Positions 1 through 22,449 of a stretch of DNA of 22,663 nucleotides are shown here, in pieces. How positions within the stretch are numbered: the stretch's first letter is position 1; each line of letters starts with the position of its first letter. The notes under the pieces were generated by a model. The model was given only the letters and a program-made list of their open reading frames with translations. It was not told the DNA's origin and searched no databases. The stretch lies in IMG/VR virus record IMGVR_UViG_3300035698_005795, positions 1 to 22,663 of that record. One strand, 5' to 3'. The position numbers and the translations under genes are program-made. This DNA comes from a virus.

Positions 1-3000
1 ATCCAATGCCCATTCAATAGCCATACCTGCAAGTTTTTTAGCAAGAATTTCAGCTAACCATTTAAGCATGTTCTGACCTATCATGTTCATTTGTTCCATG
101 ATAACATCAGAAGTAGATGTTTCCTCGACTACCCTTTCTTGATTATGTTTTGCTCTTACTCCCGCAATATCATGTTCTAACTGAATGGCTCTTGTTTTAG
201 CAAAAGAGTCTATTTGGCCTTTAGTGTGTCCTGCCTGTGTGTAATTATCAAGATCCCTTTGATAAGCAGCTTGAAGGTTAGAAATACTATTTTCAGTTTT
301 TTCATTTAATTGTGATATTCGGTCATTTTCCATTTGTTCAGAAAGAGAACCAAAAGAAACAACTGCATCAGCAATACCAGAACTTAATTGCTCTGTAAAA
401 TTTGAGGAGATCATTATCATTGTCTCCCCAAAACTTTCAGCGGCAGCAGCAGACTCTTGAAAACCTAACTTAATTTGTTCAAAAAATGTACCAGTAGCAG
501 CCGTTGTTTTATGTAAGGCATCTTCCTGGGTCATTAATCCAGCTTCTTGCATGGCTGTTACAGCTTCCGCATACGCTTGGGCACTGTAAATGCCCCTCTT
601 GTATCCAGCTTCAACTATATCCCATCGTTTTTTTAATTCAGTTTTTATTTCCCCTAAGCGTTTTTTAGCAAGACTTTTTGCTTTCTCAAAATATCCAGCC
701 TCTAATTTATCCATTACCTCCCTTGACTTTGAAAGTAATGCTGCTCTATCATCAAATAAATCTTTATAATTTTGGGAAGATTTTCCCCCAATAGCTTCTT
801 CTGCTTTTAAAAGAGAATCATAACTCCGTATTACACTTAAAGAATATTCTGTTTGGAGTTTTAATTTATCATCCGTTAACTTTCTATAATCTTCGTACTC
901 ACCGGTAAAACTTACATCTAAAGCCTTTTTCTTTTGTTTCAATAAGGTTTTTTGTAATTTTAATTGTTCCTTTACCAACTTCTCTGCAAGCTTTAATCTT
1001 TCTTGCTTTTCTTCCCTATCTGCCATAAGCAAATCATTTTCTTCTTGCTGAGGTTGGGCTTTACCGGCTTCAGCAAGTTCTTTGTGCTTCTCCTTAATAT
1101 CATCGACCATCTTTTTATATTTAGCCGTGATCTTCGCATTTGCATCTTTGGATAACCGAACCCGTAAACTTTCTAACCAATTTGAAGCGGAAGCAATAGC
1201 TTTGTTTTTCTTCTCGGTTTCCTTTATGGCGGCATCTGTTTGTTTTTTTCTTAAAATATCAAGTTCAAAATTTAAAGCCTCCGTGGTAGCTTTAATATCT
1301 TCATTATAACCATCTATTATTCCTTTGAGTTGATTAATAGTCTTTTTCGCTTCTTTAGGAGTTATGATACCAGTAATAAGCTTGTCTTGCGTATCGACTT
1401 TATTACTATTGGCTTTATCAATTAAACCTTGCAATTTTGCAATTTGCTGTTGGGCAGCCTCTGTTGTTTTACTTATCACATTTTTATAAAATTGAACCTT
1501 GTTTGTAGCACCTTGGTTTAAGTACTTCTGCAATTTAATAATGTATTCAACTTCAATAGCAAAACCAGCAGCAGCTTTTTCACCACGAACAAGAAGTTCC
1601 TGTTCTGCGTTTCCTTCCACCTTTTTCAGTCTATCATCATATATTTTATCCATTGCTGCTTTTGCTGAGGAGACTTGTTTTATTAACTTGCTCATTTTTA
1701 CTTTAGACACATAACCGGCTTCTTCCCAAGCATCTGAAAAGATACTAGGTATAGAATCTCCAAGGGATGAAAAAGCTGTTTTCATCTCCTCTTTTTTCTG
1801 TACCATAATTCTTAACTGATTATTTAAAGCCTCTTCTACGCCAGCTTGCATCCGTACTAATATAGGACCAACGGCTCCCGTAGATTTTGCTATGGTCTCC
1901 ACTAATTTCTTTATCTCTAATTCCTGATCTTTAATACTAAGCAAAAAATCAGGACTGATGGAATTAAATTTTATGTACCTCTTTAAAACAAAGTCAAAGC
2001 TTTCGCCGAGTTTTGATACTTCTCGACCTAACTCTATTTCAATATCCCTTTGATTTGCCAAAACTTTATTATATTTAATGGTGTCTGGAAGAAAACCAGC
2101 TTCTATTTGTCTTGCTCTTTCTTTTTCTACTCCAGCGGTGTCCCTTTGTGCTGCGGCAAGGTCTTTCTCTAACCTTATTACTATTTTAATTCTTGCTCCC
2201 ATAGTTTTACTTAAATTTAAGGCAATAAGCTCCTCTTGTTTTTTAATAAGCTTTTCCACGGCTATACTTGCCGTATCATAACTATCTCCAAGGAGTTTAG
2301 TGCTGATCTTCATTTTATCTAATTCAATTTTTAATCTTTCAAGGACGGCTTTTCTTTCTCTTTCACCAGAAGTTGTATCATTTAATTTATCCCTATAAGC
2401 CTCCAATATTCTTAGATTGTTTTCCATCTTGTCAGTTACAGCGGTTAATGTCCGTACTTGTTTTTGCAAAGCAGTTTCCCAATTTTGAAAACCTTGGACA
2501 ACAGCCAAAATAATTGTACTAATGCCCCAAATAACTAAACCTATTCCTCCTAAACTCCCTTTCAATCCAGTAAATGCCATTCGTAAAAGAAGAACAGCAG
2601 CGGTTAAAGCACCTATACCAACGGCAAGAATAGCAGCAGAGGTTACTAAATCCACAATTACTTTACCAACTCCAGTTTTTGCAACTGCTACTAAAATATC
2701 CACTAAACTACGGAGCATTTTTACCAAAATCTTTATATTTCCAGCTAATCCTTGTTCTCCTATTTCAACAGCCAATACCTTTAATTTATCTATCAACTGT
2801 TTAAACTGGACTTGTAATCCTTGTAACTGGGTTTGTGCCATATCAGCAGCTACACCGACCTCAAACATTTGATCTTTAAGGGAAGCAATACCATCTACAT
2901 TCTCTACTAAAGTAGTGATAGCAGAAGCACCACGAAGCCCAAATAATCTAAATGCCTTTTTAGACGAATTAACAACCTTACGAAGTTCTTTTAATATAGT

Positions 3001-3969
3001 AATGAAATCATTTGATTCTGTATTAAGTTTGGAAAGGTCTGCTCCAGCTTCAAGAAAAGCCTCACGGAGTTTTTGATTCGGTGCAACAAGTCGAGCAAGG
3101 ACTTGACGCATACCAGTACCTATCGTAGATGCTTTCAAACCAGCATTAGCGAGTGTTCCAGCAGCAGCGGCAGTAATTTCAAGTCCGAGTCCTGCTTTCT
3201 TTGCTATTGGACCGAGGTAATTGAACGCTGTCCGCAATTTTGTAATGTCAAGCTTAGATTTGTTCACAGCAATAGCAAACACGTCGGAGACTCTTGTTGC
3301 GTCAACGGTAGATAATTGGAAAGCTCTAATAGAAGTAGTCACCAGATCGGCTACTTCTTTCATGTCAGAAAGTGTGCCAGTAGCAAGATTTGCAACAGCA
3401 CGAATTGAATCAATGGTTTCAGCAGCAGAAAAACCAGCCTGCCCAAGAACAACCATGGCATCACCAACTTCTGCCGTGCTGAATTTTGTATTAGAGGCTA
3501 CATCTTTAAGAACCTCTCCCATACCTTTAACTTCACCACTTGTTACACCGGTAATAGCTTGGAGGTTTTTGAGAGCCTGGTCATATTCTGCTATGGCTTT
3601 GATACCATTTTTTATACTATTAATCATACCCATTAAAAGCCCAGCCCCTAAAGCATAAGAGGATGTGACTTTTATTGCAGCAGCTAATCTATCAACACCT
3701 CCAGTAATGGAAGCTATTTGTTTACCTGTATTTTCACCAGATTTTGTAACTTTATCAAAAGCTTTACCAGATGCTTTTAATGTTGCATTGAGTTTTTTAT
3801 TGGCAATATCCAACATAGTAACGGAACGAACCGCAGATTTGTTCATTTCAACAAATCCTTTACCTACATTCTTTGTCCAAGTCCGTAGTTCTCGCATTGC
3901 TGCTGTGAAGGTTTTATCTATTTTACCTTTAAATATAACACCTAGTTGTAATTGATTACTTAAAGGCAT
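1..3969 (-). CDS. Tail tape measure protein (3' end cut by window edge)
   Basis: This protein sets tail length and is threaded through the tail tube. The frame is open from an ATG at 3969 to position 1 (at least 1323 residues) and leaves the window still coding, so the C-terminus is missing. The ATG follows a good AAGGAG site. About residues 130-370 look like the TP901-type tape measure domain (PhageMin_Tail): a stretch reading GVTSGEVKGMGEVLKDVA, then Ala/Gly-rich helices with NTKFSTAEVGDAMVVLGQAG. A hydrophobic segment lies near residues 430-490 (DNA 2500-2680), typical of tape measures that also act in genome entry. The rest is long Lys/Glu/Gln-rich helix with strong coiled-coil character. 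It lies directly downstream of the chaperone pair G and G-T, the standard position. The family call is made by eye, but length, composition and context agree. Confidence 0.93.
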   Translation of the reverse strand, partial: MPLSNQLQLGVIFKGKIDKTFTAAMRELRTWTKNVGKGFVEMNKSAVRSVTMLDIANKKLNATLKASGKAFDKVTKSGENTGKQIASITGGVDRLAAAIKVTSSYALGAGLLMGMINSIKNGIKAIAEYDQALKNLQAITGVTSGEVKGMGEVLKDVASNTKFSTAEVGDAMVVLGQAGFSAAETIDSIRAVANLATGTLSDMKEVADLVTTSIRAFQLSTVDATRVSDVFAIAVNKSKLDITKLRTAFNYLGPIAKKAGLGLEITAAAAGTLANAGLKASTIGTGMRQVLARLVAPNQKLREAFLEAGADLSKLNTESNDFITILKELRKVVNSSKKAFRLFGLRGASAITTLVENVDGIASLKDQMFEVGVAADMAQTQLQGLQVQFKQLIDKLKVLAVEIGEQGLAGNIKILVKMLRSLVDILVAVAKTGVGKVIVDLVTSAAILAVGIGALTAAVLLLRMAFTGLKGSLGGIGLVIWGISTIILAVVQGFQNWETALQKQVRTLTAVTDKMENNLRILEAYRDKLNDTTSGERERKAVLERLKIELDKMKISTKLLGDSYDTASIAVEKLIKKQEELIALNLSKTMGARIKIVIRLEKDLAAAQRDTAGVEKERARQIEAGFLPDTIKYNKVLANQRDIEIELGREVSKLGESFDFVLKRYIKFNSISPDFLLSIKDQELEIKKLVETIAKSTGAVGPILVRMQAGVEEALNNQLRIMVQKKEEMKTAFSSLGDSIPSIFSDAWEEAGYVSKVKMSKLIKQVSSAKAAMDKIYDDRLKKVEGNAEQELLVRGEKAAAGFAIEVEYIIKLQKYLNQGATNKVQFYKNVISKTTEAAQQQIAKLQGLIDKANSNKVDTQDKLITGIITPKEAKKTINQLKGIIDGYNEDIKATTEALNFELDILRKKQTDAAIKETEKKNKAIASASNWLESLRVRLSKDANAKITAKYKKMVDDIKEKHKELAEAGKAQPQQEENDLLMADREEKQERLKLAEKLVKEQLKLQKTLLKQKKKALDVSFTGEYEDYRKLTDDKLKLQTEYSLSVIRSYDSLLKAEEAIGGKSSQNYKDLFDDRAALLSKSREVMDKLEAGYFEKAKSLAKKRLGEIKTELKKRWDIVEAGYKRGIYSAQAYAEAVTAMQEAGLMTQEDALHKTTAATGTFFEQIKLGFQESAAAAESFGETMIMISSNFTEQLSSGIADAVVSFGSLSEQMENDRISQLNEKTENSISNLQAAYQRDLDNYTQAGHTKGQIDSFAKTRAIQLEHDIAGVRAKHNQERVVEETSTSDVIMEQMNMIGQNMLKWLAEILAKKLAGMAIEWALD

Positions 3970-4007: not shown

Positions 4008-4753
4008 TTAGTTTTGTGCCGATTCACGTTTTTTTCCAGTTAATTCTTTTTCCCAATGTAACTGCATTTTTAAAGTTCGTGCTTCACCTTCTTCAGGATT
4101 TAGGTTTTTATAATCTTTTGGATCGCCAAAAAGCATAGTATCCTGCTTTGCTTGAGCAGCAAAAGTTTTAGCGAGTACGTTTGAAGTAGTTTCTGGTTTA
4201 CTAGTACCAACACCGAGCATTGAACCAAGAACTTTAAATTTTTCAACTTCCCGTTTACAAGTCTGCTCATACAAGATCATAATTTGCCGTCTGGTAAGTC
4301 CTCCTTCTTGATATCCGAGGGTGAAAACGTCTCGGAGGGTATAACCGTATCGTTCACAGACTGTGGTAACTGCCCCATCGAAGGTATCAAACTCTTCACC
4401 TTCTCGATGAGGCTCTGTCCGTTTTTTATGAAAGTCTCAAAATTCATATCAAAAACGGCATTAGAAAACTCCATAAGCTGGTTATTGCTCATTTCATCAA
4501 ACTTTGCATTATTATCAGTAACCATTTTAAAAATCATTTCCAGATTTGTATTAATAATACCGGTAATTGCCGTTACTAACTCCTCATCCTTCATCTTGCT
4601 AAAATCATCTCCGCCAGTAATCTGAATGACTGTTTTAGCTATGATTTTAATTAAGTCAGTTTCCTCTTTTAGGGCAAGAGGGAAGATGGTAGTTTCTACC
4701 ATCTCCCTCGAGCCGACCATGAATTTCTTTACGTCTGGATTAAGATTGGACAT
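4008..4753 (-). CDS. Tail assembly chaperone G-T fusion (programmed -1 frameshift product)
   Basis: Predicted frameshifted chaperone of about 248 residues: 111 residues of G through AAC at 4423-4421, then the -1 frame from 4421 to the TAA at 4010-4008. In lambda-like phages G and G-T coat the tape measure and recruit tail tube subunits. The -1 frame is open from 4436, just after a TGA at 4439-4437. It encodes a protein-like stretch (TVCERYGYTLRDVF, then LGYQEGGLTRRQIM) before its first ATG at 4280. No ATG, GTG or TTG lies in that frame between 4436 and 4280. The ATG at 4280 has no ribosome site at normal distance; the nearest GGAGG is about 17 nt away. The downstream frame is therefore most simply reached by frameshifting. 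A separate 90-residue protein starting at 4280 is the less likely alternative. Confidence 0.82.
4277..4753 (-). CDS. Tail assembly chaperone G
   Basis: 158-residue, mostly helical acidic protein in the position of lambda gpG, between the tail tube and tape measure genes. Its ATG at 4753 follows AAAGGAGG at ideal spacing. It ends at a TGA (4279-4277) that overlaps an ATG of the downstream frame. It is the unshifted product; most ribosomes should end here, giving excess G over G-T as in lambda. There is no motif that proves the family by eye. The call rests on size, gene order and the frameshift signal inside its last third. A strong hairpin (4678-4709) sits 44-75 nt into the coding region. Confidence 0.8.
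   Translation of the reverse strand: MSNLNPDVKKFMVGSREMVETTIFPLALKEETDLIKIIAKTVIQITGGDDFSKMKDEELVTAITGIINTNLEMIFKMVTDNNAKFDEMSNNQLMEFSNAVFDMNFETFIKNGQSLIEKVKSLIPSMGQLPQSVNDTVIPSETFSPSDIKKEDLPDGKL
4372..4427 (-). promoter_or_regulatory. Programmed -1 ribosomal frameshift element
   Basis: On the minus strand the zero frame reads AT[A AAA AAC], a canonical X XXY YYZ slippery heptamer at 4427-4421. After a 7-nt spacer (4420-4414) comes a stem: 5' arm 4413-4398, 12-nt loop 4397-4386, 3' arm 4385-4372. The outer stem is 10 bp (one G-U pair), followed by a 2-nt bulge and 4 more bp. The heptamer lies within the 160-nt overlap of the two open frames. Slippery site, spacer length and stem are all in the range known for dsDNA phage tail chaperone genes. 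Confidence 0.85.
4678..4709 (-). repeat. Intragenic hairpin near the start of the G chaperone gene
   Basis: Inverted repeat with arms of 14 pairs, one bulged base and a 3-nt loop: 4678-4683 plus 4685-4692 pair with 4696-4709. It is transcribed 44-75 nt downstream of the G start codon. Strong enough to fold in the mRNA; role unknown. Confidence 0.7.
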
Positions 4754-4792: not shown

Positions 4793-5374
4793 TTAAGTAA
4801 ACAAAATACGACCAAGTGGTTTTGCGTCCCAAACGGCGTTTCCACCTGTTACATCAGAAGAGGCGTTCTTACTTTCAATGGAAATTGGAGAGGCTGAAAA
4901 ATCCTCTGCCTGAAAGTCAACTTCGCCGTTGGAAGCAACCTGGGCTCTTGGGAAAATAATGTCCATATAATTTGTGTTATTAGGGAACGTATAACGAGCT
5001 TCCATTCTAACATAAATTGAAGCAGACAAATTTCCAAGAGCAATTTCACCCGAATGAACAAGAGTATAACTTGCGGGGTCTAACCCATTTGCAAGTGCCA
5101 AGTTCGCAGGTGTTATTTGCTTAAACGCACATTCAAGCATAGCTTTCTGACGAATAGGAACGGAGTAATCCTCAATAAGAGGAAAACCGGACTCAAGTAC
5201 TGCCCAGTCAACTGTTCCTGTGTACTTAGTGTTAGCCAAAGCACCAATACTGTCACTTGCAGAAAGCTGAGGTTCGATAAGAGGAATGCTGGCAGCCGAC
5301 TCACCTATTCTGATCTGGGCTAACCCCAGAGCGACAGTAGAAGTATCCGTGATTACTGGTCCTGATCTTGCCAT
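4793..5374 (-). CDS. Major tail tube protein candidate (V-like)
   Basis: 193-residue protein, beta-rich by composition, directly upstream of the tail chaperone pair. That is the usual place of the tail tube subunit, which polymerises into the tail shaft around the tape measure. No diagnostic motif is visible, so the call rests on size and order. I chose the ATG at 5374 (MARSGPVITD) because the AAGGAG site lies 7 nt upstream; the in-frame ATG at 5380 is only about one base from that site. A 6-bp hairpin (5314-5330) lies 44-60 nt after the start. A short 57-bp gap separates it from the zinc-ribbon gene upstream. Confidence 0.72.
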   Translation of the reverse strand: MARSGPVITDTSTVALGLAQIRIGESAASIPLIEPQLSASDSIGALANTKYTGTVDWAVLESGFPLIEDYSVPIRQKAMLECAFKQITPANLALANGLDPASYTLVHSGEIALGNLSASIYVRMEARYTFPNNTNYMDIIFPRAQVASNGEVDFQAEDFSASPISIESKNASSDVTGGNAVWDAKPLGRILFT

Positions 5375-5437
5375 TTTCATACTCCTTTTAAAAGATTAAT
5401 TAAAATACCCAATACCAGTAATTGTTCTGGTGATTCC

Positions 5438-6931: not shown

Positions 6932-7250
6932 TTAAATATGATCCCTTATTGGCGTGGTTAAAAGTTTTTTAACTGGCCATCCCATTCTAATACGTCCTCT
7001 TAAAGTAGGCCAATTAATACCAGTTTCCTCTGCCCATGCAGCAAGACATTGAGTTTTACCATTATAAGCATCCACAAGATTGACTCGATCCTGAAATTAA
7101 ACTCCCTTTAACAACATCTATCTCATTACCACATTTACATTTACATTTATAATAGCAATAATAATTGCCATTGTTAAGCTTTTTTTTAAATTTATTTAAA
7201 ACTGTCCAATATCCTATTTTATCTCCGATTTTAATTGATTCCCTTTTCAT
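6932..7250 (-). pseudogene. Decayed homing-endonuclease-like gene, short form
   Basis: The first part (ATG 7250 to TAA 7062, 62 residues) has a 'GDKIGYWTVL' start, then CKCKCG and SSQSCGCL. This is the cysteine-rich N-terminal module common in phage HNH/AP2-type homing endonucleases. It stops directly after CGCL, where those proteins normally continue into the nuclease. In the +1 frame the sequence continues NGKTQCLAAWAEETGINW and GRIRMGWPVKKL to a TAA at 6934-6932, a helix-turn-helix-like module often seen at the C-terminus of such proteins. The nuclease core is missing, so an internal deletion with frameshift is likely. The ATG at 7250 follows AAGGAG; an in-frame GTG at 7268 overlaps the upstream stop and is less likely. 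The 62-residue product may still be made. Confidence 0.68.
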
Positions 7251-7264
7251 TTTTATCTCCTTAA

Positions 7265-7645
7265 TCACAAAGCATTTATAAAACCGTCAAGTATTGTCTC
7301 ACTTACCAAAAGTTTATAACTTTTAACTTGCATATCATCATCCAATAACACACCCCTTTGAAAAAATCTAGGAGCTATGTAAAATTTACCGGTATCCCAT
7401 TTTCTTGTATAGAAACTTAAAAAATGGTACTTACTTTTTACAATAGATAGAAACGCACTCCGAAGCTCTGGAGACAAAAACTCATTGTCGTATAAGTACA
7501 TATATAATGGTTGCTTCACATCCATATTTGACAGCTTCCTATTAGGTAATACGGACGCAATTGTAACAAAAGGCACGGACATTACTGCTTTATTAACATT
7601 CCGATTCTTAGAATCATCACCTGGCAGTATGAAAAGATGTATCAT
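7265..7645 (-). CDS. Unknown protein of the glycosylation cassette, possibly GT2-related
   Basis: 126-residue protein, last intact gene of the sugar cassette. I do not recognise a family with confidence. Residues about 48-64 (YMYLYDNEFLSPELRSA) resemble the acidic metal-binding segment of the GT2 enzyme encoded upstream (FIDFDERFSDEL), and IAPRFF follows. The protein lacks a clear N-terminal nucleotide-binding half, so it may be a shortened GT2 relative or an unrelated accessory. The ATG at 7645 has AAAAGGAG, which forms the last codons of the methyltransferase gene, so the two genes are tightly linked. Confidence 0.65.
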   Translation of the reverse strand: MIHLFILPGDDSKNRNVNKAVMSVPFVTIASVLPNRKLSNMDVKQPLYMYLYDNEFLSPELRSAFLSIVKSKYHFLSFYTRKWDTGKFYIAPRFFQRGVLLDDDMQVKSYKLLVSETILDGFINAL

Positions 7646-7647
7646 AA

Positions 7648-8736
7648 CTACTCCTTTTCAAATACTATATCTAAGGTACAAGACTTATCATGAGGTATTG
7701 TGTCTATCTGAACGATCTTGAAATTTGGTAAATCCTTTTCAATATCTTCAAAGAACTTTCTACCTACATTTATTTTATGAGAAGGGTTACCAGTAGAATC
7801 TTCTACTCTTGGGTAACGCCCATTTTCCATATCTGGTATAAGAATAATTAAATGACCGCCAGATTTAATAAAAGTCCCCCAATTCAGTAAACAAGAAATC
7901 ATGGCTTCTCTTGTTGGTAAATCTTCTACCATATGGGAAGAAAAAACATACTCTAAGGTTTCAGAACCAGTTAATGTGTTTCCAGCAGCATTTAAAAATC
8001 CGTCAGTAGGTAACTGTTCTAAAGCTAAAGGTTGTGGTGAAACATCTACCCACATAATGCAAGAAGGGTCAAGCAAAGGACAGCACCCACAACCCATATC
8101 AACTCCGGTATCCTTAATAAAAAATTGCACGAAAGATAATTGGTAATCGTAAGCAGGTCGGAGATTTTGGTTGATCTCATTTATTTCATTTATATCGTCT
8201 ACTGTAATTTCTCCCCAGTTATTATCTTTCGGGCACCATAATGCAAAACCTTCTGTAGTAAGTAAGTTCTTTTCTCCTAATGAATCAACAAAATCATTTA
8301 CATCTGGAAAATCTCTTGTTGTGAAATAATCATGGAATAAAACTAATCCGCATTTCTTAACGGCTTCAAAATCATTCTTTGGGTACTCTCCAAAATGATT
8401 TCCATCAACAAAAGCGAAATCAAAAGATGTCGTTTCTATAAAAGGATAAATATCTTCTTCCTTTAAGACAAAAGGATACACATTTTTTATTTCAAGAAAG
8501 TCTAAAAACTCTTTCCTTTCTGGTTGCTCCTCAATATCAATGGTAATGACTTGATTTGCATATTGAGACATTATTGCGGCAGTTACACCTCGAAAAGTTC
8601 CGATTTCTACAACAACATTAAAAGGACCGTATTGCTTGCAGAAGTTTTCCAATTTTTCAAACCCTGCATTATAAAATACAGCACTCATATAAGTAACGGC
8701 TTCGTGTCCGAATTTTTGTATTAATTTATTTACCAT
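7648..8736 (-). CDS. Protein with two SAM-dependent methyltransferase domains
   Basis: 362-residue protein. Domain 1 (about residues 35-180) has the SAM-binding loop VVEIGTFRG near residue 44, then VITIDIE, FDFAFVDGNH and GLVLFHDYF, the pattern of Methyltransf_24-type class I enzymes. Domain 2 (about 205-360) starts with GVDMGCG, then WVDVSP and a late motif SGGHLIILIPD, like Methyltransf_11 enzymes. The second glycine loop is Cys-rich (MGCGCCPLL) and unusual. Such enzymes often methylate sugars in O-antigen and glycan clusters, fitting the neighbours. The start is set at the ATG 8736 because everything upstream in this frame overlaps the glycosyltransferase gene and looks non-native; GGAG lies 11 nt upstream. 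The exact substrate is unknown. Confidence 0.82.
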   Translation of the reverse strand: MVNKLIQKFGHEAVTYMSAVFYNAGFEKLENFCKQYGPFNVVVEIGTFRGVTAAIMSQYANQVITIDIEEQPERKEFLDFLEIKNVYPFVLKEEDIYPFIETTSFDFAFVDGNHFGEYPKNDFEAVKKCGLVLFHDYFTTRDFPDVNDFVDSLGEKNLLTTEGFALWCPKDNNWGEITVDDINEINEINQNLRPAYDYQLSFVQFFIKDTGVDMGCGCCPLLDPSCIMWVDVSPQPLALEQLPTDGFLNAAGNTLTGSETLEYVFSSHMVEDLPTREAMISCLLNWGTFIKSGGHLIILIPDMENGRYPRVEDSTGNPSHKINVGRKFFEDIEKDLPNFKIVQIDTIPHDKSCTLDIVFEKE

Positions 8737-9478
8737 TGGGATTTGTTCTCCATTTTCCAAAAGAAGCGTATTGTTTAAATTCTGGTTTAAGATCACATTC
8801 AAAGGCATCAGCACTAAGACCAAGTTCTTTTCTTCGTCCTTGCGCTCTTGCCCATTTCTTTTCAATATTTATTCGGTCTCTTGCGTCATCTTTACCATCG
8901 TAATGTAAAATATCAGCATCCACACATACATTAGTAAAAAGACCTTCATTTATGCCAAACATAATATGATGTGGTGAGTTAATAAAACTCATACCTGGTT
9001 TTTTAACGATTAATCTTAACTGGTAATCGGGATATTGTCCTATTACATTAAGCGGTACTGGCCATCCATCTTCTATAACAGCAAAAGGTGAACCCTCGTG
9101 TCTAAGGAGTTCAAAAGTTTTTCTACTAAAAGAAATAGTGTCTGCCTTTATAGATAACCGACCATTTTGATAATCATTTAACCACTGAATCAACTCATCC
9201 GAAAACCTTTCATCGAAATCAATAAAAATAGCCGTTTCTCCATGAGGCACATAAGAAAACCCGATATTCCTTTGCGTAATGTTCATGTCATGATACCACC
9301 CTAACCAAGGGTGTGTATAAGCTTCTGTTTTAGGATAATCGAGAACCATATCTACTGTATGGTCACCTGACCCTCCGTCAATAAGGATAAATCTTTCACA
9401 AAAAGGTTCATTAATTATATGACTAAGAACCCTTTCAACATAATGCACTTCATTTAAACTTTGGGCTAACACAATCAT
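8726..9478 (-). CDS. GT2 family glycosyltransferase
   Basis: 250-residue GT-A fold enzyme that would transfer a sugar from a nucleotide-sugar donor. An early LIDGGSGDHTVDMV (residues 32-45) is the usual nucleotide-binding segment, and AIFIDFDERFSDEL (83-96) holds the DxD-type metal site (D87, D89). A later DYQLRL and HYDGKDDARDRI fit the acceptor half. Length is normal for short GT2 enzymes, with no membrane segment. The ATG at 9478 overlaps the stop of the decayed endonuclease gene (ATGA), with AGGA 8 nt upstream, and the 3' end overlaps the methyltransferase start. Confidence 0.88.
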   Translation of the reverse strand: MIVLAQSLNEVHYVERVLSHIINEPFCERFILIDGGSGDHTVDMVLDYPKTEAYTHPWLGWYHDMNITQRNIGFSYVPHGETAIFIDFDERFSDELIQWLNDYQNGRLSIKADTISFSRKTFELLRHEGSPFAVIEDGWPVPLNVIGQYPDYQLRLIVKKPGMSFINSPHHIMFGINEGLFTNVCVDADILHYDGKDDARDRINIEKKWARAQGRRKELGLSADAFECDLKPEFKQYASFGKWRTNPNGK

Positions 9479-9974
9479 AATGAAGTTCCTTTCTTACGTC
9501 TATTTTGACAATTTTCTTTATGAGTAATAAAATAACAATTAGAAGATTCATAATTACCATTATTATTTATACGGTCTATTTCTAACCCTTTTTCATAACC
9601 ATTTCTTTCACACCATTCAATAAAACATTTAGGATCACTTTTCCACTCATTGCAAACAGTAATACTCCCCCACCATAATATTTATATGCTACATTTTTTG
9701 GATTACAACAACGGTTTTTTACTCCATTCCATACTTTATATATTGGATGGTATCTCATACCATGAATAGTGTTATCTTTTTTTGTTTTTTCTTTCCTTAA
9801 ACAACCACAAGATTTTATATCTCCAGATAAAAGATTTCCTCTTTATACAACTTTTATTGCACCGCAATCACATTGACATCTACAATGAGATTTTAAAACA
9901 CCACTTTTAAGTTTTTTATTAAATTCATTTAAAACAAGTAACCAACCAAATTTTGTATTTTTTATGCTTATCAT
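9475..9974 (-). pseudogene. Decayed HNH homing endonuclease gene (one nonsense codon, one frameshift)
   Basis: From ATG 9974 (AGGAG site 7 nt upstream) the frame reads SIKNTKFGWLLVLNEFNKKL, then CRCQCDCG, and is stopped by a TAA directly after KVV. The same frame resumes RGNLLSGDIKSCGCLRKE, then HGMRYHPIYKVWNGVKNRCC and KYYGGG. A one-base loss in a G run near 9674 shifts the frame; the next frame reads ITVCNEWKSDP, FIEWCERNGYEKGLEIDRIN and NGNYESSNCYFITHKENCQN to a TGA overlapping the next gene's ATG. This is the standard HNH homing endonuclease architecture of phages, with both lesions in conserved places. Its N-terminus resembles the shorter relic at 6932-7250, so the two are related. Confidence 0.85.
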
Positions 9975-10029
9975 GCTATTTCTCCTATTTTCTGCTGTGT
10001 CAGATCGTTTGTATGAGCAAACCTTTTAA

Positions 10030-12039
10030 TTAATCGAGTAATGACATAATAGATTTTTCAACACGATTAGGATTGATTGTGTTAATGCAAGGATTTTGAC
10101 ATAATCCTTCCATTTGGACATTGCCCCAACAGTGTGAAAGGGGCTTACAAACTCCTAAATGGTCAGGTTCAAGATTGATTATTCTATTTGGGCTACCGCA
10201 TGGACCTACCACTCTGGCCGGAGCAGGACCGTAAAGAACGACCACGGGAGTGTCAACAGCACCAGCAAGGTGGCTAACAAAAGAATCCACGCAAATGCAA
10301 CCGAGTGAATGAGCAAGGACAAAAGCACTTTCCTGAAAAGATAATTTTTCTCTAAGATCAAAGTCTGCATTTTTACATACCTTATCATCAAGTGAACCTA
10401 TTTGAACAATAGGATAAGGGAACCTACGAATTACAATATCCATATGATCATAAGTTCGGAATTTCTTATTTGCTCCTGCTGTGTGTACTACAATATACTT
10501 TTCAGGTAAACTTTTCTTTGGATCTTTTTGGTTAATAAACATTGCATCCGCTTTTACTTTTGTGAAATACGGGTACATGCTGTATAATGTCGCATCGAAA
10601 TTGTTCCAACCACCGGGAAGTATTTTCTCTCCGTGGGGGTTATAAACCACATCGTACTTTTCGGCTTGACTTTCATCCCAATTAATAATTTTATCCACAT
10701 AAGGATTATTCTCCACTATATTCATAAATTTTTTCTGTGTCATGTAAACAAGAGGTAATCCTTTATGGCGCTCTTTTAATCCCTTAAAGCAAGCCGTTGT
10801 CATTAGAACATCACCAGCAGAACTATGTTGGGCAAAAAGAATGGCCTTTATTTTACTCTTCGGTTTCTTGGGTTCAAAACAGCACAAAACGTCATTTACA
10901 TTATGTCCTTCTTTGCACCAGTTTAAAGCCCATTTTCTTGCTTCTTTTTCTAAATAACCATTATCATTTACTATGTATCCCTTGGCTATACGAACCATTA
11001 GTTCTACTAAATCTTCCAAGGAAACAGATTTACTTTCTACCCAGTGTTCTCCTCTTGGTGTCTGCATTGGTACAAGAGCAAATTGAGTTTCTGGTATTTT
11101 ATGAACAAGATTAGATGGTAAATCTTTATGTGCCGTTGAATCTGAAACAATAACAGGAGTATCACATAGCATTGCTTCAATAGGGCACCAAGATAAACCT
11201 TCTTGCATTGACGGCATAATAAAACAATCTATGGCATTATATACATTGCACATTTCTTTTGGTGAATATTTCTTCTCTTGACTCTTAGCTAAAATAGAAC
11301 CAGTAGGAAGACCAAGATCAACAGAGTACTGTGGTAAATCGTAAACAGAAGAAGGAAGAAAATCTGTATGGAGATATAAAACTGAATCTTCCAAACCTTC
11401 TACTTTTTTAACTTCGGAATAAGCTTTCATTAAAAGAGGTACGTTCTTTCTAATGGAACTTAAACCTATAAAACCAAATACAAATTGATCCTCTCTTAAA
11501 GTTTCAAAAATCGTGCTTCGAGCTTTCTTCCGATCAGGCAAAGGTTTCAGATTTGTAAGTTGATTTAAAGGGGGTCTAAAATAATGAAGATTGTTTACCC
11601 AAGGCTTTAATAGATTGAAAGCATATTCAGAGTACACTAATGGTACATCAAACGTATTGAACCAGGGAAGCCAATCCATTCTTACGGAATGTAGATCATA
11701 CGGAAATAAACCCATCAGGATAAATTTCTTGCTTGCTTGTACTCTTTTTATTCTTGGTAATGCTTCATGATAACGCCAAATATCAATACCAACAAAGAAT
11801 ATAACATCAAAGTCATAAAGTCGTATGGTATCAACAAGCTTTACGGGGTTCCATCCATTACCGTCTATAAAGAAAGTATCAAGCTGTTTAGGTATTTCTG
11901 GATGCAGTATTTCAAACGCAGAATAACAGGATACATCGTATTTGGTACGATCTACCTGTTCTAAGAGGGCTTTCATCATATGGCTATTACCAGCCACGCC
12001 AGAAGGGTGTTCTCCTACAAATAGTATTTTTTTCTTCAT
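10030..12039 (-). CDS. Two-domain glycosyltransferase: GT4 fused to GT9
   Basis: 669-residue protein. Residues 1-385 form a GT-B enzyme of the GT4 type: KILFVGEHPSGVAGNSHMM at the start, FGFIGLSSIRKN as the usual mid motif, and the EX7E motif EGLSWCPIE (about 280-288) followed by AMLCDTPVIVSD. Residues about 396-669 form a second GT-B domain like heptosyltransferases (GT9): LFAQHSSAGDVLMTT, VVHTAGANKKFRTYDHM and CVDSFVSHLAGAVDTPVVVL then YGP. The usual GT9 lengths are near 300-350, so this domain is compact. The ATG at 12039 is chosen because GAGG lies 8 nt upstream; the in-frame TTG at 12045 is too close. It is the first gene of the accessory cassette. Two consecutive sugar transfers by one polypeptide is the natural reading; donors and acceptor are unknown. 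Confidence 0.9.
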   Translation of the reverse strand: MKKKILFVGEHPSGVAGNSHMMKALLEQVDRTKYDVSCYSAFEILHPEIPKQLDTFFIDGNGWNPVKLVDTIRLYDFDVIFFVGIDIWRYHEALPRIKRVQASKKFILMGLFPYDLHSVRMDWLPWFNTFDVPLVYSEYAFNLLKPWVNNLHYFRPPLNQLTNLKPLPDRKKARSTIFETLREDQFVFGFIGLSSIRKNVPLLMKAYSEVKKVEGLEDSVLYLHTDFLPSSVYDLPQYSVDLGLPTGSILAKSQEKKYSPKEMCNVYNAIDCFIMPSMQEGLSWCPIEAMLCDTPVIVSDSTAHKDLPSNLVHKIPETQFALVPMQTPRGEHWVESKSVSLEDLVELMVRIAKGYIVNDNGYLEKEARKWALNWCKEGHNVNDVLCCFEPKKPKSKIKAILFAQHSSAGDVLMTTACFKGLKERHKGLPLVYMTQKKFMNIVENNPYVDKIINWDESQAEKYDVVYNPHGEKILPGGWNNFDATLYSMYPYFTKVKADAMFINQKDPKKSLPEKYIVVHTAGANKKFRTYDHMDIVIRRFPYPIVQIGSLDDKVCKNADFDLREKLSFQESAFVLAHSLGCICVDSFVSHLAGAVDTPVVVLYGPAPARVVGPCGSPNRIINLEPDHLGVCKPLSHCWGNVQMEGLCQNPCINTINPNRVEKSIMSLLD

Positions 12040-12083
12040 CTTCAATTCCTCGGCGGACTTGCGTCCACAAATTGATTGTTAAA

Positions 12084-21509: not shown

Positions 21510-21579
21510 TGGTAATGATTAACTGGTAATGGTTAACTGGTAATGATTAACTGGTAATGGTTAACTGGTAATGGTTAAA
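21510..21579. repeat. Five tandem 14-bp repeats (iteron-like)
   Basis: Unit TGGTAATGRTTAAC, starts at 21510, 21524, 21538, 21552 and 21566. The variable base reads A, G, A, G, G; the last unit ends in A instead of C. Otherwise identical. 178 bp upstream of the small terminase start. Iteron-like arrays occur in replication origins and in terminase-binding sites such as cosB. Confidence 0.92.
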
Positions 21580-21689
21580 AACAAGGAGTTATGGAGATAT
21601 ATTATAAGGGTTCATTCAATGACCATTGGGAGGCCTTTTTTTGGTAAAACCTCAGGAAATATATTATGGTCGGTACCCCGTAGAGCTAT

Positions 21690-22449
21690 GTACTGTATAC
21701 TACAAGATAGATGGAGGGGGCATGTACTGTGTATTACACACCATACACCAAGGGGCAGATGTACTGTGTAGTAGTTAGTCAATATATACTGGTATGTAGT
21801 ACACAGTACAAACGTCTGATAAAATACATTATGTAAACTTGTACTATGTACTACACATCACACACTCTCGATTCTTGACTGCGTGTACTATGTAGTAGTT
21901 AGTCAACATATACTGGTGTGTAGTACACAGTACACAGTCAGCGAGTAACATAGACTGTGTAGTACACAGTGCACCGTGAATTGTGCGCTCTATATGTACT
22001 AAGTCATATATACAACACACGTCAAGTGCCAAAATTGAACCGACCATGTACTACACACTACACACTCTCTCTCTACTATGTTTACTATTTACTACATAAT
22101 AAAACCACAGTCATATGTTTAGTACACGATACATACTCACTGCTGCTGTGTCCCCTTTACTACATAGTTCACTATCATCTCTCTATGCTCTATTGCTGCT
22201 TTTTATTTTCTATTCATACAAAGAATTAATCGTAAATAGTTTTTGTATTTATAGTGCTTCTTGTTGCTTCTGTAGCTCTATTTTTCTTGTTGTTTGCTCA
22301 AAGTATTCATCTTCTTGTTTTTGAGTAAATTATTTTATGAAAAGCGTACACTGTCTTATGCTTTGTATCTGTAATAAATTCAATTGATTATTGACTTATT
22401 CGTTAAATAAAACGTCTTTTATCTATTGTATTAAGTAGTACACAGAGTA
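21690..22449. repeat. Dispersed 14-bp motif GTACTGTGTASTAC in both orientations
   Basis: Forward copies near 21690, 21724, 21761, 21841 and 21885; reverse-complement copies near 21796, 21920, 21959 and 22435; diverged copies near 22048 and 22119. Most differ from the consensus by zero to three bases. Adjacent opposite copies form inverted repeats. Consistent with an array of sites for one DNA-binding protein. Confidence 0.8.
21761..21934. repeat. Two 50-bp direct repeats
   Basis: 21761-21810 and 21885-21934 agree at 47 of 50 positions and lie 124 bp apart. Each starts with a forward copy of the 14-bp motif and ends with a reverse copy, so each is itself an imperfect inverted repeat with a 21-nt AT-rich centre (GTTAGTCAAYATATACTGG region). 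Confidence 0.9.

Follow-up and report, generated by a model that had tools for sequence, protein, structure and literature searches.

A single gene in an uncultivated virus almost certainly encodes two tail assembly chaperones, a 158-residue G and a 248-residue G-T fusion, which would be produced by lambda-type programmed -1 ribosomal frameshifting. The gene was analyzed in a 22.7-kb linear IMG/VR contig (22,663 nt, referred to as the window), whose minus strand carries head genes (terminase, portal, protease, and major head protein) and tail genes. The G/G-T gene sits between a probable tail tube gene and the tape measure gene (Table 1), and the same gene order (major tail protein, G-T, tape measure) was read in a relative, L003. 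Identification of the upstream gene as the tail tube protein is probable and rests on gene position and conservation, as the protein of the window showed no PHROG or Pfam match of its own. Translation of G would start from a strong ribosome-binding site (AAAGGAGG at 4766-4759), located 5 nt ahead of its ATG.

Table 1. Coordinates of the G/G-T gene, its candidate frameshift elements, and its neighbors in the window
Feature	Coordinates	Strand	Remarks
Probable major tail (tube) protein	4793..5380	-	Upstream neighbor; assigned by position and by adjacency to G in all loci
G, predicted zero-frame product, 158 aa	4277..4753	-	Stop codon TGA at 4279-4277
G-T, predicted fusion, 248 aa	4008..4753	-	4753-4421 in frame 0, then 4421-4008 in frame -1
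Slippery heptamer A AAA AAC	4421..4427	-	Phase ATA AAA AAC; in phase with the zero frame
7-nt spacer GGACAGA	4414..4420	-	Length equal in nearly all relatives
Putative stimulatory hairpin	4372..4413	-	Supported by fold, by pairing with compensatory changes, and by stability above that of synonymous versions
Probable dual-coding overlap	4280..4420	-	47 zero-frame codons forming the G-specific polar tail; start of T in frame -1
Conserved T core	4281..4421	-	Upstream of the first ATG in frame -1; predicted helices, pLDDT about 95 at T residues 20-50
Mechanical 90-aa ORF	4008..4280	-	Starts at ATG 4280; unlikely to be a gene of its own
Tape measure protein	1..3969	-	Downstream neighbor, cut by the contig end; Pfam PhageMin_Tail 3e-37, PHROG tape measure 1e-51

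A number of other features were observed elsewhere in the window. Region 7648-12045, between the head and tail genes, encodes on its minus strand a protein with a methyltransferase domain (Methyltransf_24, 1e-8) and a probable glycosyltransferase of family 2 (3e-4, which misses the Pfam cut-off), together with a 671-aa protein in which glycosyltransferase domains of group 1 and family 9 are combined. A small 68-aa ORF at 7062-7268 on the same strand ends in a Cys-rich segment (CKCKCGNEIDVVKGSLISGSSQSCGCL) and resembles a portion of a DNA-binding protein of the homing-endonuclease type; no Pfam match was found for it. Upstream of the terminase genes lies a repeat-rich stretch (21510-22172). A 28-nt unit (TGGTAATGRTTAAC) occurs there in four copies that overlap with a 14-nt period (21510-21579), followed by many direct and inverted copies of an element similar to TGTAGTACACAGTACA. 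This stretch may serve in packaging, replication, or control.

Programmed -1 frameshift sites are characterized by a heptamer of the form X XXY YYZ and an RNA structure 5-9 nt 3' of it, and both are present in the window. As the original prediction had stated, AAAAAAC lies in the phase of the zero frame and is followed by a 7-nt spacer; it is the sole in-phase heptamer of this form within G. The hairpin that follows was recovered by RNA folding, with a minimum free energy of -20.6 kcal/mol (z -3.5 against dinucleotide shuffles, none of 200 being equally good), while a longer fold window (4421-4330) gave a z of only -1.86. It ends at 4372 as predicted and consists of a 10-bp outer stem (4413-4404 paired with 4381-4372) and a 5-bp inner stem including one G-U pair (4401-4397 paired with 4386-4382), closed by a 10-nt loop; the earlier description of 10+4 bp with a 12-nt loop is the same structure minus the G-U pair. 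A search of Rfam returned no match. Codon-shuffled copies of G contained on average 0.36 in-phase heptamers in the overlap, so that the heptamer of the window is weak evidence by itself. As its presence is unsurprising in this one sequence, the case rests on relatives.

Direct searches with T and G as queries yielded 3 and 0 loci, respectively, and relatives were therefore gathered through the neighboring major tail protein, a route that carries no bias toward the frameshift site. This search yielded 80 viral loci and, in addition, two contigs that had been placed in a Sulfuricurvum MAG bin. Removal of copies left 71 distinct loci, of which 63 representatives were less than 90% identical in the region; contigs L046, L077, and L081, which end too early to be judged, were left out of the count of complete loci. 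Another candidate relative, L002, was rejected as a short-motif match inside an unrelated gene. The two contigs binned in the one Sulfuricurvum MAG (L085 and L086) are phage contigs of the G-T family, which gives a weak hint of a Sulfuricurvum host for some members.

All 71 distinct complete loci, which derive from many metagenomes, have an open T frame and carry a slippery heptamer in phase. Loss of the heptamer with retention of both frames, which would have spoken against frameshifting, was seen in no complete relative. The heptamer was A AAA AAC in 45 loci, A AAA AAA in 15, A AAA AAG in 4, and A AAA AAT in 3, with C CCT TTA in 2 and G GGA AAA and G GGA AAG in one each. Heptamer type changed at least 12 times on the tail-protein tree, with the phase kept throughout. 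In the two loci with C CCT TTA (L051 and L070), the site is displaced upstream by 9 nt, and a hairpin is not evident. Frame -1 is also conserved as a protein in 60 sequences. Amino-acid identity was 44.7% in this frame, versus 35% in the other frames.

Covariation of the hairpin was scored on a T-protein alignment onto which the codons had been mapped, thereby avoiding an alignment fitted to the structure. Across the relatives, 87.9% of cells in the ten outer pairs can pair. This value was reached in none of 2000 trials in which the 3' arms were dealt anew (at most 84.1%), nor when they were dealt among sequences sharing the residues of a Gly-Glu-Ala motif (never more than 87.5%), and sliding the arms reduced pairing to at most 54%. 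Pairs 1, 6, and 9 vary on both sides, as expected of compensatory change. Moreover, the hairpin is more stable than in synonymous versions of the sequence, with a mean z of -2.1 when the -1-frame T protein was preserved and of -3.1 when the zero-frame G protein was preserved. The hairpin is not obligatory, since it is weak or unrecognized in about nine of the 63 representatives (L014, L024, L026, L029, L033, L051, L070, and others). An upstream SD-like stimulator was present in only 14 of the 63 and is not conserved. At the level of sequence, comparison among relatives thus bears out both the frameshift signals and the coding status of the two frames.

The signal is also specific enough to be found from nucleotides only. 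The pattern AAAAAAC-N7-RCCTCTTC-N12-42-GRAGAGG, scanned over 2.9 million viral contigs, matched 31 stretches, all at the G-T junction: 29 lie in new loci, which were read as G-T junctions, and the other two (L015 and L073) were already in the set.

In 57 of the 63 representatives, the zero frame runs 40-60 codons past the slip site (47 codons in the G of the window), and these codons overlap the start of T. Ser, Thr, Glu, Asp, Pro, and Lys are abundant in the zero-frame tail, whereas Arg, aromatic residues, and stops are nearly absent (for example, SLIPSMGQLPQSVNDTVIPSETFSPSDIK); the tail is predicted to be disordered, with a pLDDT of 44-50. Here, the third base of each T codon is the second base of a zero-frame codon. 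Third bases of T codons after the stem were therefore compared with those downstream of the overlap, and 56 loci could be tested singly. In loci with a long tail, C, G, and T made up 42.9%, 6.2%, and 16.3% of third positions after the stem, versus 13.8%, 24.0%, and 29.5% downstream. C was more frequent in the overlap in 56 of 56 loci, and G less frequent in 55 of 56. The window itself showed the same difference (C 36% in the overlap versus 7% downstream, G 0% versus 13%). An earlier measure, avoidance of stops (8/233 versus 213/465 stop-making codons), was rejected, as NTA and NTG were equally avoided where no stop arises; the wobble-composition test with an early-stop control was used in its place for this reason.

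The control was provided by six loci with an early zero-frame stop. They include L023, L035, L039, and L050, natural variants that lack the G tail and whose zero frame ends 12-19 codons downstream of the slip site. In the six loci, which represent about five lineages and are partly kin, third positions of T codons after the stop contained 18.9% C, 15.6% G, and 41.0% T, and differed from those of long-tail loci in all three respects (Fisher p 8e-8 for C, 5e-4 for G, and 1e-9 for T). The bias is thus weaker where the zero frame has ended while T is still encoded, which fits selection on a translated tail rather than on T only.

One other reading of the tail deserves consideration, namely that it is a passive by-product of T coding, or that a G-poor, C-rich composition keeps the surroundings of the hairpin unstructured. 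Several observations are in line with this: amino-acid identity of the zero-frame tail (35.4%) is no higher than that of the unused third frame (35.1%), tail length alone was not significant locus by locus, and the avoidance of NTA and NTG is not confined to stop-making places. On the other hand, U is avoided as well as G at wobble positions, as a polar zero frame predicts, and the bias fades after early zero-frame stops. We consider this explanation rather unlikely. Conservation of amino acids in the tail is weak (z 2.8, versus 1.2 for the third frame), and since hardly any of its exact sequence is conserved, what selection acts on seems to be the character of the tail. Dual coding of the 40-60 codons after the slip site is the probable explanation, with T determined mainly by codon positions one and two and with wobble bases that build a selected, disordered, and polar tail for G. 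By the same reading, G is likely a chaperone with a tail that is absent from G-T, rather than simply a truncated G-T.

The start of T in frame -1 bears on a second alternative, in which T is a separate 90-aa gene starting from ATG 4280 and translationally coupled to the end of G. This ATG overlaps the stop codon of G (ATGA at 4280-4277), and AAGGAGG is found upstream of it, at 4306-4300, but at a gap of 19 nt, beyond the usual distance of a ribosome-binding site. A listing of stops and starts agreed with the original prediction that no usable site serves this ATG and that frame -1 is open from 4436: the last stop upstream lies at 4439-4437 and the next at 4010-4008, and the first ATG, GTG, or TTG is the one at 4280, 52 codons on. 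An ATG is present among the initial 55 codons of T in just 18 of the 63 representatives, and a start of any kind with a ribosome-binding site of at least 5 bases in just 2. Furthermore, the part of frame -1 that precedes 4280 resembles the T of other loci, including the conserved motif GEAVTTVCERYGYRLEDFYRKSFREGGLT, and is confidently folded in AlphaFold models, with a pLDDT of about 95 at T residues 20-50, a range that spans ATG 4280 at residue 48 of 137. A start at 4280 would therefore lose the best-conserved and most confidently folded part of T, amounting to 34% of the domain rather than the half originally proposed. A separate T gene is thus very improbable, although low-level internal initiation retains some likelihood in this one phage. 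Rather, frame -1 appears to be coding without a start or ribosome-binding site of its own, and T, which is predicted to be all-helical, would be made only as part of the fusion. As predicted, translation across the junction (IKN/RTEPHR) gives a product of 248 residues.

T could also be brought into frame by slippage of RNA polymerase on the A run, as most sites are runs of at least six A. In the window the run is only six, though; some relatives have G GGA AAG, G GGA AAA, or C CCT TTA in its place, all loci preserve the zero-frame phase of X XXY YYZ, and the hairpin lies downstream at the usual ribosomal spacing, which together leave transcriptional slippage with very little probability. A sequencing or assembly error that split one gene, which a frame change inside a gene resembles, can be practically dismissed, as the same arrangement recurs in 71 distinct loci from many metagenomes and both frames are under coding constraint.

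Searches with G, T, and the fusion of the window against protein families gave nothing significant and no chaperone family, and its function was therefore assigned from gene position, G relatives, and the frameshift. The fusion itself thus did not produce the family match sought, but 13 of 50 G relatives matched PHROG 1442 ('tail assembly chaperone', best 1.7e-7), and 6 gave weak matches to Pfam Phage_TAC_15; the G of the window falls below every threshold for these families. Along with the position between the major tail and tape measure genes, these relatives support the chaperone reading made originally from the lambda-like gene position. The structural model of G bore a weak resemblance to named frameshift chaperones, including the 'Pre-tape measure frameshift protein G' of Xylella phage Sano (E 7.6e-4, with a TM-score of only 0.3), and a search of the PDB with it gave nothing significant. 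T matched no family of known function, and its model had no structural match. In the phage collection, the major tail protein and the terminase found no relatives, and a match to the fusion was a chance match only; by these two proteins, the virus family has no close cultured relative in the collection searched. In Roseobacter phage RDJL Phi 2 (KT266805.1; L094), an unannotated gap of 365 nt separates gp68 from the tape measure gene (52412-52776), in which a T-like frame might be expected.

The arrangement is like that of the G/G-T chaperones of phage lambda (Levin et al. 1993; Xu et al. 2004, 2013, 2014; reviewed in PMC5009743), where the gene likewise lies between those for the major tail and tape measure proteins and T is reached by a -1 heptamer slip near the 3' end of G. 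The phage collection search gave no sequence match to lambda, however, and the two systems differ in detail: lambda slips on G GGA AAG and its G ends 5 codons later, whereas the family of the window mostly has A AAA AAC with a hairpin at 7-nt spacing, and the G of the window has a 47-codon tail. Similarly, E and E+E' of phage P2 are produced by a -1 frameshift before the tape measure gene, but the P2 slip site has a T run and E ends 20 nt after it. The haloarchaeal virus HCTV-2, which has an archaeal host, shares A AAA AAC at its g-t junction (PMC5009743). The kind of frameshift is thus known, while the family and its dual-coded tail look new. The long, probably dual-coded overlap is unusual in comparison with lambda and P2, the two annotated systems considered here, rather than by a survey.

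What follows on the ribosomal slip and its efficiency, as well as on the partners that G and T would bind, is inferred. Most ribosomes would read the zero frame to 4277, yielding G, with a folded body of about 110 residues and a polar tail of 47 residues. A fraction would pause at the hairpin, where the tRNAs could re-pair on A AAA AAC (AAA-AAC to AAA-AAA), and the slipped ribosomes would continue in frame -1 to 4008, yielding G-T with its all-helical T domain. Lambda-type chaperones are characterized by a fixed ratio of the two products and by their absence from the virion. By analogy with lambda (PMC5009743), the tape measure protein would be coated by G, and T would recruit subunits of the tail tube. 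Meanwhile, the wobble positions of the T codons would be held to give G its polar tail. In Escherichia coli, A AAA AAC supports slippage inefficiently (PMC4066793), which may not apply to the host of this virus. That weak slippage is the reason for the stable hairpin remains a guess, because heptamer type was unrelated to hairpin strength, with no trade-off between the two (Mann-Whitney p 0.94).

For this virus family, a second tail chaperone becomes visible only once the frameshift is recognized, as gene callers would list a 90-aa 'T' that lacks its conserved core. The conserved signal provides a DNA-level marker with which the G-T junction can be located independently of protein homology. 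Finally, the dual-coded tail, which G-T lacks, suggests that G is not just the front portion of G-T, with implications for how the two proteins are kept apart in tail assembly.
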